Part shown: positions 24,060 to 42,779 of the stretch, piece after piece | Position numbering within the stretch: the first letter of the stretch is position 1 | How the letters are laid out: each line of letters starts with the position of its first letter | Source: Luteithermobacter gelatinilyticus | GTDB lineage: Bacteria > Pseudomonadota > Alphaproteobacteria > Sphingomonadales > Emcibacteraceae | Reading direction: 5' to 3' | NCBI RefSeq assembly: GCF_005849285.1 | Contig: NZ_CP040517.1 | Span: 1,556,501-1,620,500, forward strand | DNA length: 64,000 nt | Notes under the pieces: model-generated | Databases searched by the model: none | What the model saw: only the letters and a program-made list of their open reading frames with translations | What the model was told of the DNA's origin: nothing | Position numbers and translations under genes: made by a program

Positions 24060-25241
24060 ATGGACCAGAAAGAGATAATACGGGGCAGGCCGGATCAGGC
24101 CGGAAGCACAGAAATAAATCCCGATAAAATTCTGGCGGCTGGGCTGATGAGCGGCACATCGCTGGATGGCATTGATGCTGCCCTGGTGCTAACCGATGGA
24201 TATGACGTCGAGCCTTATGGCAAGCCGGTTCATGTCCCGTATGATCAGGATTTCCAAAATCTGATCCGTGAAGGAATTGGCCGGGCAGCCCTTTACGGAG
24301 AACCCGTCAAAGACGATATGACCATTAACAAGCTCGAGGTTGTTCTGACCGACCATCATCAGACGGCACTTCAAAAATTAATGGTTGAAAACAAGCTGTC
24401 CTGGAAAAAGCTGGATGTGATTGGGTTTCATGGGCAAACATTGTTGCATAAACCCGAAGCCGGCTGGACCTGGCAGATCGGTAAAGGGGAGCAACTGGCC
24501 AACCGGTTACAGATTCCCGTGGTTAATGACTTTAGAAGCCGGGATATGTCGCTGGGCGGGCAGGGGGCGCCGCTGGCACCGATCTATCATTTGGCGCTGG
24601 CCTGTCGCCGGAAACAGCGTGACAAGTCCCTGGCGCTGCTCAATATCGGCGGTGTAACCAATCTTACCTGGATTCCGCCGGACCGGAGACCTGAAGAGCT
24701 TCTGGCTTTTGACACAGGACCGGGCAATGCGCTGCTCAATGACTGGATCCACAAACACACCGGCAACAGCTTTGACCAGGACGGCGCCATTTCCGTTACC
24801 GGCAAAGTGGATCAGGCCCTGCTTGAAAGCTGGATGGCGCATGACTATTTCACGGCACCTCCCCCCAAATCCCTGGATCGCAATATGTTTGAAGTTCCAG
24901 GCCTTGACGGCCTATCCGTGGAAGACGGCGCGGCCACCTTATGCGCCTTCACGGTGGAAACGGTAAAAGCCGCAGAAGGTTTATGTCCTTCGATTCCCGA
25001 AAACTGGTATGTGTGTGGCGGCGGCCGGCATAATCCCGTAATTATGGATATGCTGCGCAAAAGGCTGCTGGGGACGGTTCATTTGATTGAGGAATTGGGC
25101 GCACAGGGTGACTTTATCGAAGCAGAAGCCTTTGCTTATATGGCGGTGCGCAAGCTGAAGGACCTGCCCATTTCTTTCCCGGGAACAACCGGCGTTGCCG
25201 AACCGTCCCCGGGAGGGGTTATTCATTATCCCGCCTGTTAG
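24060..25241 (+). CDS. anmK: Anhydro-N-acetylmuramic acid kinase
   Basis: 393 residues. It phosphorylates and opens 1,6-anhydroMurNAc released by lytic transglycosylases, feeding peptidoglycan recycling. Family motifs are AGLMSGTSLDGIDAAL near the N-terminus, GFHGQTLLHKPE, LNIGGVTNLTW, FDTGPGNALLNDW and YVCGGGRHN. A short N-terminal tail of about 25 residues precedes the ATPase fold. It matches functionally with mltB, dacA and amiC elsewhere in the window. The TAG stop (25239-25241) is the first triplet of a type A palindrome, and the next gene is convergent. Confidence 0.96.
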   Translation: MDQKEIIRGRPDQAGSTEINPDKILAAGLMSGTSLDGIDAALVLTDGYDVEPYGKPVHVPYDQDFQNLIREGIGRAALYGEPVKDDMTINKLEVVLTDHHQTALQKLMVENKLSWKKLDVIGFHGQTLLHKPEAGWTWQIGKGEQLANRLQIPVVNDFRSRDMSLGGQGAPLAPIYHLALACRRKQRDKSLALLNIGGVTNLTWIPPDRRPEELLAFDTGPGNALLNDWIHKHTGNSFDQDGAISVTGKVDQALLESWMAHDYFTAPPPKSLDRNMFEVPGLDGLSVEDGAATLCAFTVETVKAAEGLCPSIPENWYVCGGGRHNPVIMDMLRKRLLGTVHLIEELGAQGDFIEAEAFAYMAVRKLKDLPISFPGTTGVAEPSPGGVIHYPAC

Positions 25242-25275
25242 AGTGAATTGTGAATAGGTTGACCCATTCACTCTA
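25239..25275 (+). repeat. Type A palindromic repeat, copy 2 (anmK-hydrolase junction)
   Basis: The left arm TAGAGTGAATTG begins on the anmK stop codon. The right arm CCATTCACTCTA has one mismatch, and the loop TGAATAGGTTGAC is one base shorter than in the other copies. It lies between convergent genes, in the same orientation as anmK. Confidence 0.94.
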
Positions 25276-26944: not shown

Positions 26945-28072
26945 ATGACGTCCAGACGGGTTTATCTCGACTATAACGCCACGGCGCCGGTCTATCCCGA
27001 AGTTATTGAAGAGGTCGCAAAAGTCCTTGCCGAGGGGGGGAATGCCTCTTCAGTTCATGCTGCGGGGCGGGCGGCCAAGGCGAGACTCGAAAAATCCCGA
27101 CAGATCATTGCCGATATGCTGAATTGCCGGCCACAGATGATCACCTTTACCAGCGGCGGCACCGAAGCCAATAATATTGCGCTTAAAGCCTCTGGCGCAA
27201 AACGGCTGATTATTTCCGCAGCAGAGCATGATTCCGTTCTTGAAGTGGCCAGGACATTTGCAGGAGAAGTGGAAATCCTGCCCTTGGATCACAAGGGATA
27301 TGTGCGTCGCGACATCCTGCAACAACTGTTGGACAAAAGCGAGGCCCCCACAGTGGTCAGCATCATGCTGGCTAATAATGAAACCGGTGTTCTTCAGGAC
27401 ATTGCCGCACTGGCCGAAATGGTTCATGACCATGGGGCGCTGTTTCATACGGACGCCATTCAGGCATTGGGTAAGGTGCCTGTGGATTTTCGCGCGCTGG
27501 GTGTGGATATGATGTCCCTGTCGGCCCATAAGGTTGGTGGCCCCCAAGGGGTTGGTGCCCTGATTGCCTGGGAAAAACTCGACATCCTTCCATTGATTCA
27601 GGGCGGCGGGCAGGAAGTCGGACGGCGCTCCGGCACAGAAAATATTGCCGGCATTGCCGGTTTTGCCAAAGCCGTCAGTCTGGTGCCCCGATCCCTGCAA
27701 AAAGCTGCTGAAATCAGAGAATGGCGTGACGAAATGGAGCAAATACTGCTTAGCCATGCTCCGGATGCAAAAATTTTTGGCGCGGAGTCTGAACGGCTGC
27801 CCACAGTCTCTTCCATTCTGATGCCCGGTGTGAACAGCGAAACCCAGGTGATGGCCTTTGACCTGGACGGTCTCTGTGTTAGTGCAGGCTCGGCCTGTTC
27901 CTCAGGCAAGGTCAAATCATCCCATGTGATCACCGCGATGGGCGGCACACCGGAAGAAGCCGCCTCTACTCTGCGCCTCAGTCTCGGCTGGGCCACCACC
28001 CGCGAGGACATCGAGCGTTTCGTCAAAAGCTGGTGTCGCCTTTATGACCGGAAGATAAAAAAAGCCTCATGA
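26945..28072 (+). CDS. Cysteine desulfurase, NifS/IscS family (first of two)
   Basis: 375 residues. A PLP enzyme that moves sulfur from cysteine as persulfide. Visible are the N-terminal YLDYNATAPVYP, the PLP lysine in SLSAHKVGGPQG and the catalytic cysteine in SAGSACSSGKV. The RSGTENIAG segment is also present. It starts 8 bp after cysE and overlaps the second desulfurase by 4 bp (ATGA), so translation is coupled. Paired desulfurases are frequent in alphaproteobacteria upstream of suf genes, but no suf genes follow here. Its specific acceptor (Fe-S, tRNA thiolation or thiamine) cannot be told. Confidence 0.93.
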   Translation: MTSRRVYLDYNATAPVYPEVIEEVAKVLAEGGNASSVHAAGRAAKARLEKSRQIIADMLNCRPQMITFTSGGTEANNIALKASGAKRLIISAAEHDSVLEVARTFAGEVEILPLDHKGYVRRDILQQLLDKSEAPTVVSIMLANNETGVLQDIAALAEMVHDHGALFHTDAIQALGKVPVDFRALGVDMMSLSAHKVGGPQGVGALIAWEKLDILPLIQGGGQEVGRRSGTENIAGIAGFAKAVSLVPRSLQKAAEIREWRDEMEQILLSHAPDAKIFGAESERLPTVSSILMPGVNSETQVMAFDLDGLCVSAGSACSSGKVKSSHVITAMGGTPEEAASTLRLSLGWATTREDIERFVKSWCRLYDRKIKKAS

Positions 28073-29232
28073 GCAATACACCGAAGCTGCCGATTTATCT
28101 GGATTATCAGGCAACAACACCGCTGGACAGGCGGGTGCTGGACAGCATGCTGCCGTATCTCACCGATAAATTCGGCAATCCGCACAGCATCAATCACAGT
28201 TTTGGATGGGAAGCGGAGGCCGGTGTGGAAAAGGCACGGATTGACCTTGCCCGCCTGATTGGTGCAGAAAGCGACTCCCTGATTTTTACCTCAGGCGCGA
28301 CTGAGTCCAACAACCTCGCCATCAAAGGGGCTGCGTATGCCGGGTATCCGCAGCGGACCCATGTCATCACGGTCGCAACCGAACATAAATGTGTGCTGGA
28401 AAGCTGCCGGGCGCTGGAACAGGGCGGATTCGATGTCACCTATCTGCCGGTTGATAAGGACGGTCTTGTGGATCTTGACCACCTTAGGGACAGTATCACC
28501 GATAAAACCTCCCTGGTGTCTGTTATGGCCGTAAATAACGAGATCGGTGTCGTTCAGGACATTGCCCATATCGGGGCGCTTTGTCGTGAAAAAGGGGTTC
28601 TTTTTCATACAGACGCCGCACAGGCTGTCGGCAAAATTCCCCTCGACGTGAACCGCATGCATATTGACCTGCTTAGCATTTCCGGCCATAAATTTTATGG
28701 TCCCAAAGGCATCGGGGCACTTTATATCCGCCAGGAACCGGAAGTTCCCCTGCTGCCCTTACTCAATGGGGGAGGGCAGGAAAAAGGATTGCGTTCCGGG
28801 ACTCTCTCCCCGGCATTATGTGCGGGTCTCGGGCACGCTGCGGCGTTGGCTGAAAGGGAAATGGAACAGGACATGCAGCATGCCGACAAATTGTCCAGAA
28901 AACTGAAGAACAGGCTATTCCAGGCGCTGGAGGGAGTGAAGCTGAACGGCCATGAAACCCAACGCTGGCCGGGCAATCTCAGCCTGACATTTGACGGTGT
29001 GAAAAGCGATGTACTGATCGCCGAACTCCGGGACATTGCGGTCTCAAGTGGATCGGCCTGTTCTACGGTCAAGGTTGGCCCGTCTCATGTGCTTCAGGCC
29101 CTGGGCCTGAACAAAAAGCAGCTGGAATCAACCCTGCGTATTGGCATCGGGCGCATGACTACAGAGGCGGAAATAGACTATGCCGCCACTGTTTTGATTG
29201 ATAAGGTTCGTCATACCCGTTCCCTGCTTTAG
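28069..29232 (+). CDS. Cysteine desulfurase, IscS-like (second of two)
   Basis: 387 residues. It has the PLP-binding lysine in SISGHKFYGPKG, GATESNNLAIKG, and the catalytic cysteine in SSGSACSTVKVGPSHVL on an extended loop as in group I IscS enzymes. It overlaps the preceding desulfurase by 4 bp. It is the last gene of the cysE unit. Its TAG stop (29230-29232) is the first triplet of a type A palindrome, beyond which panE comes in from the other strand. No iscU, iscR or suf genes are in the window. Confidence 0.93.
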   Translation: MSNTPKLPIYLDYQATTPLDRRVLDSMLPYLTDKFGNPHSINHSFGWEAEAGVEKARIDLARLIGAESDSLIFTSGATESNNLAIKGAAYAGYPQRTHVITVATEHKCVLESCRALEQGGFDVTYLPVDKDGLVDLDHLRDSITDKTSLVSVMAVNNEIGVVQDIAHIGALCREKGVLFHTDAAQAVGKIPLDVNRMHIDLLSISGHKFYGPKGIGALYIRQEPEVPLLPLLNGGGQEKGLRSGTLSPALCAGLGHAAALAEREMEQDMQHADKLSRKLKNRLFQALEGVKLNGHETQRWPGNLSLTFDGVKSDVLIAELRDIAVSSGSACSTVKVGPSHVLQALGLNKKQLESTLRIGIGRMTTEAEIDYAATVLIDKVRHTRSLL

Positions 29233-29267
29233 AGTGAATTGTGAATAGGTTGGATCAATTCACTTTA
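29230..29267 (+). repeat. Type A palindromic repeat, copy 3 (supplies both stop codons)
   Basis: Arms TAGAGTGAATTG (29230-29241) and CAATTCACTTTA (29256-29267), loop TGAATAGGTTGGAT. The first triplet is the TAG stop of the desulfurase; the last triplet, read on the minus strand, is the TAA stop of panE. The entire space between the two convergent genes is thus the element itself. The one arm change is a G-U pair in plus-strand RNA. Confidence 0.95.
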
Positions 29268-30197
29268 GCCCCTGTCCGGGGTACCGTCGGCATAAGGTTT
29301 GAGGCATATATAACATAGAGAATGTAATGGGGTAGGGATACTGTATTTCCGTCCCAACCGATGCAGGGTGCCCTGAATCCATTCTAGTTCCAATCGCTGT
29401 CCCCGTGCCTTGGCGACCGCCTGTGACGCCATGAGATTCTGGCCCTTAAGCCCGTCGATCCGTGCCATGATCATGTCCACAAGACCATCGGACAGGGTCA
29501 CGCCGTCCGCCCGGGCAACCGCCACTACCTCTTGCAGCGCCTGACGGAACAAAGGCCGGCTGTCCGGATCTCTGCACAGCGCCCCGGCATCCCGTCCGGT
29601 CAAGGCCCCCAGTCCGGCATTGGCCGCAAGCAGCACAAATTTTTCCCAAAGCATCACACGCATATCCGGATGACGGTCCCCCGTAAGTCCTGCGGCGGCA
29701 ACCATATCTGCCACCGGTTTGTAGTTTTCCTCAGGGAAATCTTCAGGCCCGGCATACATGAGCATATTTGCCCCGCCGTTATGGCGGATGACCCCAGGTT
29801 CCGCAATGCTGGCGGACACATAAATGGATCCGGCCAATGTCCGGCCCGGTCCTATGATACGGGAAATCATCTCCACACTTTCCACCCCGTTCTGCAGGGT
29901 GAGCAGGAAGGTTTTGTCCTGCATCAGAGGCAGGCAAGCCGCTGCGGCCTGTTCCGTATCGAACAATTTCACACTGAAAATAATCATATCCACGGGACCG
30001 ATTGTGGCCGGATCGTCGCTGGCTGTGACCGGAGCAACGTGGATATCACCTTCCTCTGACAACAACGCCAGTCCGTTTTCACGCAGGGCTTTCAGATGTG
30101 CTCCCCGGGCAATAAAAGCAACGTCATAGCCGGCCTTTGAAAGTTTCGCACCAAGGAATCCCCCCATGCCGCCAGCCCCCATAATAGCAATGCGCAT
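29265..30197 (-). CDS. panE: 2-dehydropantoate 2-reductase
   Basis: 310 residues. It reduces ketopantoate to pantoate with NADPH in pantothenate synthesis. The Rossmann motif is IMGAGGMGGFLGAKL at the N-terminus. LTLQNGVES and the conserved lysine in LWEKFVLLAANAG follow, and the C-terminal helical domain ends with a typical tail. It starts directly after the TAA of the upstream esterase gene (TAAATG), so the two are co-transcribed. Its TAA stop lies in the end of a type A palindrome. Confidence 0.93.
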   Translation of the reverse strand: MRIAIMGAGGMGGFLGAKLSKAGYDVAFIARGAHLKALRENGLALLSEEGDIHVAPVTASDDPATIGPVDMIIFSVKLFDTEQAAAACLPLMQDKTFLLTLQNGVESVEMISRIIGPGRTLAGSIYVSASIAEPGVIRHNGGANMLMYAGPEDFPEENYKPVADMVAAAGLTGDRHPDMRVMLWEKFVLLAANAGLGALTGRDAGALCRDPDSRPLFRQALQEVVAVARADGVTLSDGLVDMIMARIDGLKGQNLMASQAVAKARGQRLELEWIQGTLHRLGRKYSIPTPLHSLCYICLKPYADGTPDRG

Positions 30198-38785: not shown

Positions 38786-38797
38786 TAGGGTGAATTG
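38786..38797. repeat. Degenerate half copy of the type A arm
   Basis: TAGGGTGAATTG differs by one base from the type A arm and lies 15 bp before full copy 4, in front of GGGGTCAGATTGACTC. It looks like a remnant of another copy with its loop and second arm lost. Confidence 0.5.
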
Positions 38798-38812
38798 GGG
38801 TCAGATTGACTC

Positions 38813-38850
38813 TAGAGTGAATTGAGCCAACCTCTTCACAATTCACTCTA
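38813..38850 (-). repeat. Type A palindromic repeat, copy 4 (in palindrome cluster)
   Basis: Arms TAGAGTGAATTG and CAATTCACTCTA are perfect; on the minus strand the loop reads TGAAGAGGTTGGCT. It lies upstream of the KefB/C-type gene and about 160 bp downstream of the hypothetical gene. Its right end shares a CTAG with the next palindrome. It is the only full type A copy not at a convergent junction and not on a stop codon. Confidence 0.94.
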
Positions 38851-38922
38851 GTCTTCTGACTCTGAAATTCGTATCATATTTGTAGCAGGCTATTCGAATT
38901 TCAGAGTCAACAAGAAGACTAG
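38848..38922. repeat. Type B palindrome bounded by CTAG
   Basis: CTAG at both ends (38848-38851 and 38919-38922). Outer stem TAGTCTTCT / AGAAGACTA (9 bp); a 4-nt bulge AACA on the right side only (38909-38912); inner stem GACTCTGAAATTCG / CGAATTTCAGAGTC (14 bp, perfect); loop of 23 nt. It shares its left CTAG with type A copy 4. Confidence 0.93.
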
Positions 38923-38936
38923 TTAATTATTTGACT

Positions 38937-39014
38937 CTAGTGTGGTTTCTGAATTTGAAGCTCCTAAGTCGTATGACATAATCAATAACAGGAACTTCAA
39001 ATTCACCACACTAG
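38937..39014. repeat. Type C palindrome bounded by CTAG, ending on a stop codon
   Basis: CTAG at both ends (38937-38940 and 39011-39014). Outer stem TAGTGTGGT / ACCACACTA (9 bp); a 4-nt bulge TTCT on the left side only (38947-38950); inner stem GAATTTGAAG / CTTCAAATTC (10 bp), continued after one mismatch by TCCT / AGGA; loop of about 24 nt. The right CTAG contains the TAG stop of the hypothetical gene. The plan is the same as type B, in reverse orientation. Confidence 0.93.
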
Positions 39015-39520
39015 CGCGCCGTCATCATTCTGAGGCTCTCTAGAGACAGCTCTGCCCAGCCATCAGGAGGCAGACGGTTCGTCCGCAAATATCCGGCCTC
39101 ATCAACAGCAAAAGCCAGGCTGTAAGACAAAGAATGGGTCATCAGACTGTACGTCTCCCCGCCGCCCAGAAGGAATAATACATAAGCTGTTTGGGGACGA
39201 AAATACGCGCTGATCAACTGCCCCGGCAGCTTCACCTGAAGAGGTGACGCAACATTTGCCTCCGGAGGGCCTTTCAGAACCTCAACAATTTCAAAATACC
39301 TTACGGGACGCTGATCTCGCGGTCCCGAGACCACCGGCGCCGAAACAGGGCGCGCCAGAACAACCATGGCGGCCATATCAAAAGCCTCGCGCGCCGTGCC
39401 GCTGAAAATAGTTAACTCCTGGGCCATATATGGAGGATCAAGGGCTATGGCCCTGCCCGGCATCACTGCGGACAAGGCCATTGCTGTAATAATCAGATAT
39501 TGTCTGAACCTGCGTTTCAT
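39011..39520 (-). CDS. Hypothetical secreted protein next to the PEP-CTERM gene
   Basis: 169 residues, not recognised. The N-terminus (RQYLIITAMALSAVMPGRAIA) is a signal peptide. The mature part reads ELTIFSGTAREAFDMAAMVVLARPVSA... with a beta-rich segment, VRYFEIVEVLKGP, resembling the 'VLKG' pattern of small OB- or NTR-like secreted domains; this resemblance is weak. No cysteines or metal motifs stand out. It is 16 bp downstream of the PEP-CTERM-like metalloprotease gene, probably in the same operon. Its TAG stop lies in the type C palindrome. Confidence 0.72.
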   Translation of the reverse strand: MKRRFRQYLIITAMALSAVMPGRAIALDPPYMAQELTIFSGTAREAFDMAAMVVLARPVSAPVVSGPRDQRPVRYFEIVEVLKGPPEANVASPLQVKLPGQLISAYFRPQTAYVLFLLGGGETYSLMTHSLSYSLAFAVDEAGYLRTNRLPPDGWAELSLESLRMMTAR

Positions 39521-41275: not shown

Positions 41276-41529
41276 ACAGAATCCGGGACACCCCCTCCCT
41301 TCGCAAAGGTGCTAAGCAAATTCTGTACCATGATGGGCAACCCCACCAGTAACGGGAGTCTGGACCGTGGAAATGCTATTTTTTGAAATTTTCGCAGTCA
41401 AAAGTGTAAAGAATTCAAGACAGTCTGAAATCCCGAAATAAGGGCTGGGGCAGGATGTCGTCAAATTATGCTGATTTTTTTCAACCGGATATGTTACTGG
41501 TGGGAAAGAGGTGGAGGGAAGATATAAGC

Positions 41530-42744
41530 ATGACAGATCCGAAAAACGGCGTTTCCGACAAACCAATTGGCGTAACGGAAATTTTCTGGCGGTTTTTGCT
41601 ACTGGGCTGTACCTCCTTTGGCGGGCCGGTCGCACATCTGGGATATTTTCGGGATGAATTTGTCAAAAGACGACGCTGGATCAGCGATCAGGCCTATGCG
41701 GATCTGATTGCCTTTTGCCAGTTTCTTCCGGGACCCGCTTCCAGTCAGGTTGGCATGGCCATCGGCCTCAGCAAAGGCGGATATGGTGGCATGTTCGCTG
41801 CCTGGGTGGCCTTTACCCTGCCTTCTGCCCTGATAATGTTTGGTTTTGCCTATGGGGTCAACCAGTATAGTGATCTTCTGGGGGGAGGCTGGATTTTAGG
41901 TCTCAAAGCCGCAACCGTGGCCATCGTGGCTCAGGCGCTGCTGGGTATGGCTTCCTCTCTCACGCCAGACCGGCGCACAGCCAGCATTGCCCTTGTTGCC
42001 CTGCTCGTGGTTTTCCTTATTCCCGGTGCTGTCGGTCAGGTCACGGCCATTCTTATTGGGGGATTCCTTGGCACATTCTGGTGCCGTCACGCCCCCCAAA
42101 CACAGCAGGATAACCACAAGCTCGGGGGAAATACCAGGGCCGGTACAGCGGCATTTTTGCTGATCCTTTTTGCAACACTAATGGTTGTCCTGCCGGTTGT
42201 CGCCACTTTCACCCCCGCACAGGGCCTTACCCTTCTGGACAGTTTTTACCGGGCCGGCGCCTTGGTCTTTGGCGGCGGGCACGTGGTTTTGCCGCTATTA
42301 CAGGCGGAAATGGTGCAAACCGGACTGGTCAGCCGCGAAGATTTTCTGGCCGGATACGGTCTTGCCCAGGCCGTACCCGGCCCGCTTTTCACTTTTTCCA
42401 GCTATCTGGGCGCCATAGCCGCTGGCCCCCTGCCCGCCACCGCCAAGGCCGGTATTGCCACACTGGGCATTTTTCTGCCGTCCTTTTTTCTGGTAATCGG
42501 CGGCTTGCCGTTGTGGAATCGCATGCGGCGCATGTCACGGGCCCGCAAGGCCATGACTGGCGTCAATGCCGCTGTGGTTGGTCTGCTCGCCGCCGCCCTT
42601 TACGACCCTGTTTTTACGGAAGGCATAACGGGAACCGCCACTCTGGCCATCGCAGCGGTGAGTTTCATTGCGCTCAAACACTGGAACATCCCGGCCTGGG
42701 CCATTGTCATTGTGGCGGGGCTGGCCGGAGGCGCACTGCTTTAG
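41530..42744 (+). CDS. chrA: Chromate transporter, two-domain form
   Basis: 404 residues from ATG 41530, which has GGAGGGA upstream. The two homologous halves each carry the family motif: first FGGPVAHLGYFRDEFV with QFLPGPASSQ, second FGGGHVVLPLLQAE with QAVPGPLFTFSSYLG. There are about 10-12 hydrophobic segments. The CHR family expels chromate from the cytoplasm in resistant strains; in others substrate specificity is untested. The frame is open 25 codons further upstream without a ribosome site. Its TAG stop is the start of a type A palindrome. Confidence 0.92.
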   Translation: MTDPKNGVSDKPIGVTEIFWRFLLLGCTSFGGPVAHLGYFRDEFVKRRRWISDQAYADLIAFCQFLPGPASSQVGMAIGLSKGGYGGMFAAWVAFTLPSALIMFGFAYGVNQYSDLLGGGWILGLKAATVAIVAQALLGMASSLTPDRRTASIALVALLVVFLIPGAVGQVTAILIGGFLGTFWCRHAPQTQQDNHKLGGNTRAGTAAFLLILFATLMVVLPVVATFTPAQGLTLLDSFYRAGALVFGGGHVVLPLLQAEMVQTGLVSREDFLAGYGLAQAVPGPLFTFSSYLGAIAAGPLPATAKAGIATLGIFLPSFFLVIGGLPLWNRMRRMSRARKAMTGVNAAVVGLLAAALYDPVFTEGITGTATLAIAAVSFIALKHWNIPAWAIVIVAGLAGGALL

Positions 42745-42779
42745 AGTAAATTGAGCCAACCTATTCACAATTCACTCTA
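42742..42779 (-). repeat. Type A palindromic repeat, copy 5 (chrA-LOG junction)
   Basis: Arms TAGAGTAAATTG (42742-42753) and CAATTCACTCTA (42768-42779). The loop on the minus strand reads TGAATAGGTTGGCT. It starts on the chrA stop codon and lies between convergent genes. The single arm change is a G-U pair in minus-strand RNA, which is the direction of the element. Confidence 0.94.

Follow-up and report, generated by a model that had tools for sequence, protein, structure and literature searches.

Palindromic intergenic repeats of Alphaproteobacteria include RIME of Rhizobium, which we liken to the element analyzed here by description only. A preference of IS630 for the TA dinucleotide in CTAG is stated in the title of the report by Tenzen and Ohtsubo (1991), cited in PMC2170065. 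RUP of Streptococcus pneumoniae, a single 107-bp unit, is described as a short non-coding repeat with IS630-like terminal inverted repeats (IS630-Spn1) and TA targets (PMC3049150, PMC2229807). For BOX, another repeat of S. pneumoniae, 36 genes with the stop codon inside a copy and no clear truncation are described, together with an enrichment of repeats between convergent genes (PMC3049150). MITEPsy1 of Pseudomonas syringae is presented as an IS5-like MITE of 100 bp that inserts at CTAG or YTAA with a 4-bp duplication (PMC3189936). In Brucella, Bru-RS1 and Bru-RS2 are palindromic intergenic repeats of 103-106 bp (PMC10800456), and Bru-RS1 is the target of IS711 at YTAR (PMC3163539). The CcrM-associated repeats of Caulobacter, CIR (Chen and Shapiro 2003, as summarized in section 7 of the 2007 review PMC2229807), are described as alphaproteobacterial, intergenic repeats of about 110 bp with two arms, a linker, TA termini and GANTC at the hairpin loop. 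On these descriptions, IS630 MITEs at TA (RUP), CTAG-targeting MITEs (MITEPsy1), stop-providing repeats without truncation (BOX) and two-arm GANTC repeats (CIR) are already in print.

The DNA analyzed here (the window) is a stretch of 64,000 nucleotides of the Luteithermobacter gelatinilyticus genome (G000, one 3.15-Mb contig). A preliminary description had reported a palindrome, type C, at 38937-39014, and had noted that its right-hand CTAG (39011-39014) provides the TAG stop of a secreted hypothetical gene on the minus strand. Both observations were reproduced: the arms 38937-38946 and 39005-39014 are fully paired, 38950-38965 and 38990-39005 are paired at 94%, the inner arm carries the 4-nt bulge TTTC, and the complement of 39011-39013 completes the reading ...CGC TAG. 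The palindrome is real but is not a stand-alone element. It occurs in G000 at 14 places at 91-100% identity and at one diverged place at 79%, and because most of these copies bring along, on one side, the hairpin found at 38848-38922 and a 14-nt linker, with the opposite flank differing, we define the unit as 38848-39014 on the plus strand, of which the palindrome is the right half. This two-hairpin element (types B+C) is 167 bp long with CTAG at both ends, or 38849-39013 from TA to TA. It consists of hairpin B (38848-38922), whose outer end GTCTTCTGACTCTGAAATTCG resembles the ends of an IS630 element considered below (L270), the linker (38923-38936), and hairpin C (38937-39014). The window copy holds three GANTC sites, and a GACTC at 38933-38937 spans the end of the linker into the next CTAG. 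Folded as single-stranded DNA, the element forms two hairpins at -39.7 kcal/mol, compared with -12.4 for shuffled sequences (z -9.6). The best Rfam match of the window stretch reached 24 bits against a gathering score of 90, and four other loci gave no Rfam match. Besides 13 full copies with unrelated outer flanks, G000 holds one split copy, fragments and relics of the element. In the split copy, the inner CTAG is occupied by an element that appears IS5-like from a reading of its transposase ORFs (L005 1501-2400; L071, G000 2910682-2911728) and that is bordered by CTAG left and right; CTAG is also targeted by this unrelated IS.

The two-hairpin element is the last of a stack of three in the window. 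A short type A element of 38 bp, TA to TA, lies at 38813-38850 (plus strand) and meets the two-hairpin element in a common TA, the right one of the former and the left one of the latter. Its other TA is shared with a 29-bp stretch at 38786-38814 (plus strand), which we read as a diverged type A variant by comparison with a 29-bp element at G000 2485440. The type A motif (CTAGAGTGAATTG plus spacer) has 152 sites in G000 and its reversed control has none; the type A sample, selected by exact CTAGAGTGAATTG ends, comprises 96 of the 100 sites listed among these 152. In the stretches read, most paired ends delimit either 38 bp (52 of 85 pairs) or about 270-296 bp. Two DDE_3 (IS630-type) transposase genes are present in G000, and the elements that carry them (L254 and L255) are 98.8% identical over 1,070 bp. 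Their left end is a type A end, set in CTAG or TTAG; for the L254/L255 ends, 20/21 and 16/21 positions are identical. Type A elements thus have terminal repeats in common with an IS630 transposon of the same genome. Moreover, a 270-bp type A element inside a B+C copy of G000, at the inner CTAG, allowed a comparison of filled and empty sites and showed a duplicated TA in the YTAR/CTAG context. The coding region of the type A IS630 transposase is divided at a run of A (L254 1400-1450) into two frames that overlap, which suggests programmed frameshifting. Some IS630 transposases likewise read as two overlapping frames.

No corresponding partner of the two-hairpin element was detected among the DDE_3 genes of G000, where both transposase loci match type A, though the 13 B+C copies look recent, or in the stretches found with the end pattern CTAGTGTGGTKNNNNTGAAGTTC described below. 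Autonomous IS630 elements with similar ends surfaced only when 32 genomes bearing the repeats were searched for DDE_3 genes, with matches in 26, and when the ends of 39 IS630 loci were examined (L296 not among them). The IS630 element L270 is 1,184 bp long, has CTAG on each side and encodes a 379-aa protein that matches the NCBIfam IS630 profile at 287 bits against a cut-off of 100; L295, of 1,179 bp, has the same GTGTCCTGA-type ends at both sides. Both genomes hold two-hairpin elements (L142 and L201, the latter a diverged copy). The outer end of hairpin B is identical to each L270 end at 16 of 21 positions, a value reached by none of 20,000 shuffles. For L270 and L295 together, the identities are 14-16/21 with hairpin B and 12-15/21 with hairpin C; the consensus of the second hairpin across the family reaches 19/21 with L295. 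The control ends of L254 match the two-hairpin ends at 6-9/21, which is not significant, and CTAGTGTCCTGA-type ends on both sides were found at only 2 of the 39 loci. Through L270 and L295, which belong to other genomes, the two-hairpin element therefore shares its terminal repeats with IS630 transposons, and we infer that the named IS630 transposases move these elements. The enzyme mobilizing B+C in G000 may have been lost, may be too diverged for DDE_3, or may be that of type A. At four further loci (L273, L291, L293 and L294), one end or both are of the CTAGTGG type and resemble those of a second two-hairpin subfamily, with ends CTAGTGGATT... and CTAGTGGTC..., which we observed in an environmental Brucella (L143, reverse strand from 7752), where it sits inside a first-subfamily element at the inner CTAG.

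A search of 40 relatives matched one further genome, from another family of the order, with 67% identity and the same architecture (L057). In GTDB contigs, CTAGTGTGGTKNNNNTGAAGTTC retrieved at least 114 stretches, compared with about 4 expected by chance according to our own estimate. Among the 80 listed by name, most belong to Alphaproteobacteria (the Brucella/Ochrobactrum group, Mesorhizobium, Xanthobacteraceae, Parvularculaceae, Acidiphilium and others), and some to Acidobacteria, Chloroflexi and a deltaproteobacterium. The two-hairpin filter (acceptance range 135-185) passed 66 of the 117 pattern hits examined and failed 51; all 66 accepted copies measure 162-170 bp, and in 49 the inner CTAGs are 13 nt apart. 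An alignment of 45 rows (43 of the 66, the window copy and L057) has 48 consensus pairs, of which 21 show pair-keeping changes on both sides in at least one sequence, a count that relatedness inflates; each inner arm carries a bulge of 3-5 nt. GANTC is present in 62 of 65 distinct copies, and lies in the linker in 45 of the 65, where a rough estimate would give about 11%. Under the strict pattern the family is patchily distributed, being found in 4 of 385 genomes of the class, our own included (reversed control, 0). Repeats of Chloroflexi (L141, L174, L195 and L213) and Acidobacteria (L144, L166, L168 and L189) have similar CTAGTGTGGTG...TGAAGTTC ends with a different interior and without a second hairpin; these are probably ordinary MITEs of related IS630 elements.

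Compared with the systems described above, the element is a pair of separate hairpins with a linker, in other bacteria, whereas RUP is a single unit. BOX has other ends and another partner IS, and its stop lies within the repeat rather than at the target-site boundary; MITEPsy1 differs in its IS5-like nature and its duplication, and Bru-RS, compared by description only, in its length. There is also a likeness to CIR: the two arms with a linker, the intergenic position, the TA termini, the occurrence in Alphaproteobacteria and the GANTC sites are all found again, but the GANTC sites lie in linker and stems, and end-motif hits are also found outside Alphaproteobacteria, there without the second hairpin. 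We do not file the element as CIR because its length differs, CIR having been compared by description and not through the CIR1-CIR4 sequences. The two-hairpin element is CIR-like and appears to be IS630-mobilized. Our literature search retrieved no paper with the element's sequence in the context of bacterial repeats, none linking IS630 to CIR, and no IS630 example of a covarying double hairpin with methylation sites as non-autonomous form. As far as this search shows, the link of two-hairpin repeats to IS630 and the covariation of their stems are new.

The gene whose stop is provided by the boundary CTAG (39011-39520, minus strand) encodes 169 aa with a start that reads as signal-peptide-like, and Pfam and NCBIfam profiles gave no match to its product. 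A distant relative in genome G001 can be aligned up to residue 166 of 169 and ends nine codons later; since it is only 29% identical, the stop is compatible with the original position or with a shift by up to about nine codons. The preliminary description had counted five boundaries coinciding with in-frame stops across two element types. The coincidence is confirmed, the number being six genes in five insertion blocks: those ending at 2242, 25241, 29232 and 42744 on the plus strand, and at 29265 (TAA) and 39011 on the minus strand. The left TAG of the type A element at 2240-2277 is the stop of a thiG-like gene (1460-2242), that of the element at 25239-25275 the stop of an anmK-like gene (24060-25241), and that of the element at 42742-42779 the stop of a chromate-transporter gene (41455-42744), all three elements being on the plus strand. 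A further type A element (29230-29267, plus strand) lies between convergent genes: its left TAG is the stop of 28069-29232 (+), and its right end is the TAA stop of 29265-30197 (-). It seems that, prior to insertion, the stops of this convergent pair had a TA in common (TAG on the plus strand, TAA on the minus strand); the element now parts the pair with both stops kept. Pfam profile matches stop 5, 3, 16 and 9 residues short of the C-terminus for ThiG, AnmK, a class-V aminotransferase and a ketopantoate reductase; the match of the chromate transporter comprises two domain stretches, with only the first placed. As judged from their sequences, these stop-boundary genes of the window are complete, four of them by profile match.

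For the statistical analysis, genes were called by a purpose-written codon-usage script trained on 31 ORFs of the window, and 86 insertion blocks were defined, leaving out 57 unpaired ends and one pair of less than 29 bp. Type A and B+C taken together, TA is found at both ends in 78 of the 86 blocks. The reconstructed targets are CTAG in 41, CTAA in 21, TTAG in 15 and others in 9, type A loci having been chosen by an exact CTAG end; most two-hairpin copies have CTAG at both ends. For a two-hairpin copy in another genome (L205), three orthologous sites (L298-L300) are empty and have flanks that meet within a few bases, the site itself being too diverged for the TA duplication to be read letter by letter. 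CTAG is rare in the window, with 28 occurrences against 248 from base composition, and 7 of the 28 are inside repeats. Among 172 boundaries (94 stretches), 92 have a facing gene 3' end in the search range, and 33 of these stops fall exactly at the boundary TA, the next offset counting 4. Genes that reach an element do so in the ratio 33:4:3 by frame, stop frame first (binomial, 2e-10). In other genomes, where 64 of the 66 accepted copies were used and boundaries with less than 400 bases of flank were skipped, a dominant long ORF reads in at 48 of 120 boundaries, in the stop frame at 29 and in the others at 8 and 11 (1e-4; the control is flat).

It had been proposed that the coincidence would lose its meaning if its rate equaled that of random intergenic positions containing TAG. 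Compared with all non-coding sites of the same tetranucleotide, this is not the case: 31 of 86 blocks lie at stops, against 10.0 expected (14.2 with occupied sites), and none of 20,000 draws reaches this number. When the comparison is confined to the zone 0-100 bp behind a facing stop, the rate comes closer to expectation, 31 of 55 blocks against 20.7 (23.2), with 57 and 426 of 20,000 draws reaching 31. In this range, 8 of 15 unoccupied CTAG sites are stop codons. The context of the blocks is often convergent (38 of 85 classified, one of the 86 without a gene on one side being excluded, against 24 of 181 element-free junctions), including 23 of the 31 blocks at stops. Most of the stop coincidence is thus explained by CTAG targeting and by survival at gene 3' ends, because the elements need (C/T)TA(G/A) and persist behind genes, where a considerable proportion of such sites are stops. 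The modest excess that remains may reflect selection against disturbing 3' flanks, or a genuine preference. Types A and C had been taken as unrelated in sequence and yet showing the same behavior; both do show it, but they are not independent kinds, since the ends of both are those of IS630-type transposons, whose insertion site is TA within YTAR/CTAG.

Type A and the two-hairpin element are very probably non-autonomous MITEs of IS630-family (Tc1/mariner-like) transposons, whose insertion at TA in CTAG spares stops, other insertions being lost. A transposase acting in trans would cut at the ends of the element and link these to a TA, with CTAG as the preferred context and with duplication of the TA. 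The first base of the element is G and its last base is C, so that both junctions read TA-G inward. From this reading of the sequence, when the TA within a TAG or TAA stop is hit, the stop would survive on the gene side, and a CTAG target would become a CTAG on either side of the element, because G and C stand beside TA; stacking would then be possible. Since CTAG is very rare and few non-coding CTAGs lie near genes, stop codons would represent a considerable fraction of the harmless sites; with TAG as the stop of many genes, an element would often land exactly on a stop and leave the gene unharmed. Insertions within genes or promoters would be lost by selection.

Other explanations were weighed against this one. 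Long bulged hairpins, a conserved tetranucleotide and the BIME-like pairing of two hairpins in one unit recall REP/RAYT elements, in which a hairpin has a tetranucleotide at its base and a Y1 (HUH) transposase mobilizes the single-stranded form; both the bulge and the tetranucleotide are important for TnpA-REP, as described in PMC8266576, and G000 does have one Y1_Tnp gene. This sole gene (L079 1300-2200, G000 714939) is, however, flanked by its own GGGGACAGTATAC repeats with no CTAG hairpin, so that no cognate Y1 transposase bordered by the hairpins studied here was found; with the TA duplications and the DDE parent IS of type A and the IS630-like ends of B+C, a REP/RAYT origin is highly improbable. 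It is scarcely more credible that the elements truncate genes, their TAG ending any frame that runs in. A TAG is on offer at both ends, and seven other-frame overlaps do end inside an element, but truncation predicts equal frames, contrary to the ratio of 33:4:3, and the four profile matches in the window extend almost to the C-terminus. In one case the gene may have been slightly truncated and its stop not preserved: at the two-hairpin copy in L205, the boundary TAG stands in place of TGG, two codons ahead of the stop of the relatives, and the gene may be two residues shorter.

The coincidence with stops could also be selected itself, if elements behind stops end transcription or stabilize mRNA 3' ends, notably between convergent genes. 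The enriched convergent context, the residual excess at stops in 3' flanks and the covarying stems are in keeping with this. The same distribution is expected if elements avoid promoters and genes, an argument made for pneumococcal repeats in PMC3049150, and our reading of the sequences found no T-run after the stems; we consider such selection rather unlikely, if less far-fetched than truncation. That intergenic TAGs are simply common enough for five coincidences finds a parallel in the 3' flanks, where about half of the unoccupied CTAG sites are stops and high rates are expected. For random non-coding sites, chance is refuted by the 20,000 draws, and as a general explanation it has next to no probability.

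If the IS630 reading holds, the simple rule is that a CTAG-targeting transposon in a nearly CTAG-free genome looks attracted to stop codons. The same reading provides a testable account of how CIR-like two-arm alphaproteobacterial repeats move, a question left open in the 2007 review (PMC2229807, section 7). More tentatively, an IS630 lineage might treat stops as safe harbors, with ends that regenerate both TAG and CTAG and so permit stacks such as 38786-39014, and the two-hairpin form might be a specialized, IS630-mobilized relative of CIR, in which stems and methylation sites would control either the movement of the element or the 3' ends of host genes; we regard this extended proposal as possible but doubtful. 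The comparison at a further locus (L197) was set aside, because the relatives differ at the stop and one of them bears another repeat there. At the end of the same gene in another species (L312, about position 2100), CTCTAG is followed by a different repeat, TAGAGCGCATCC..., which may be a further MITE of the IS630 type on that stop codon.
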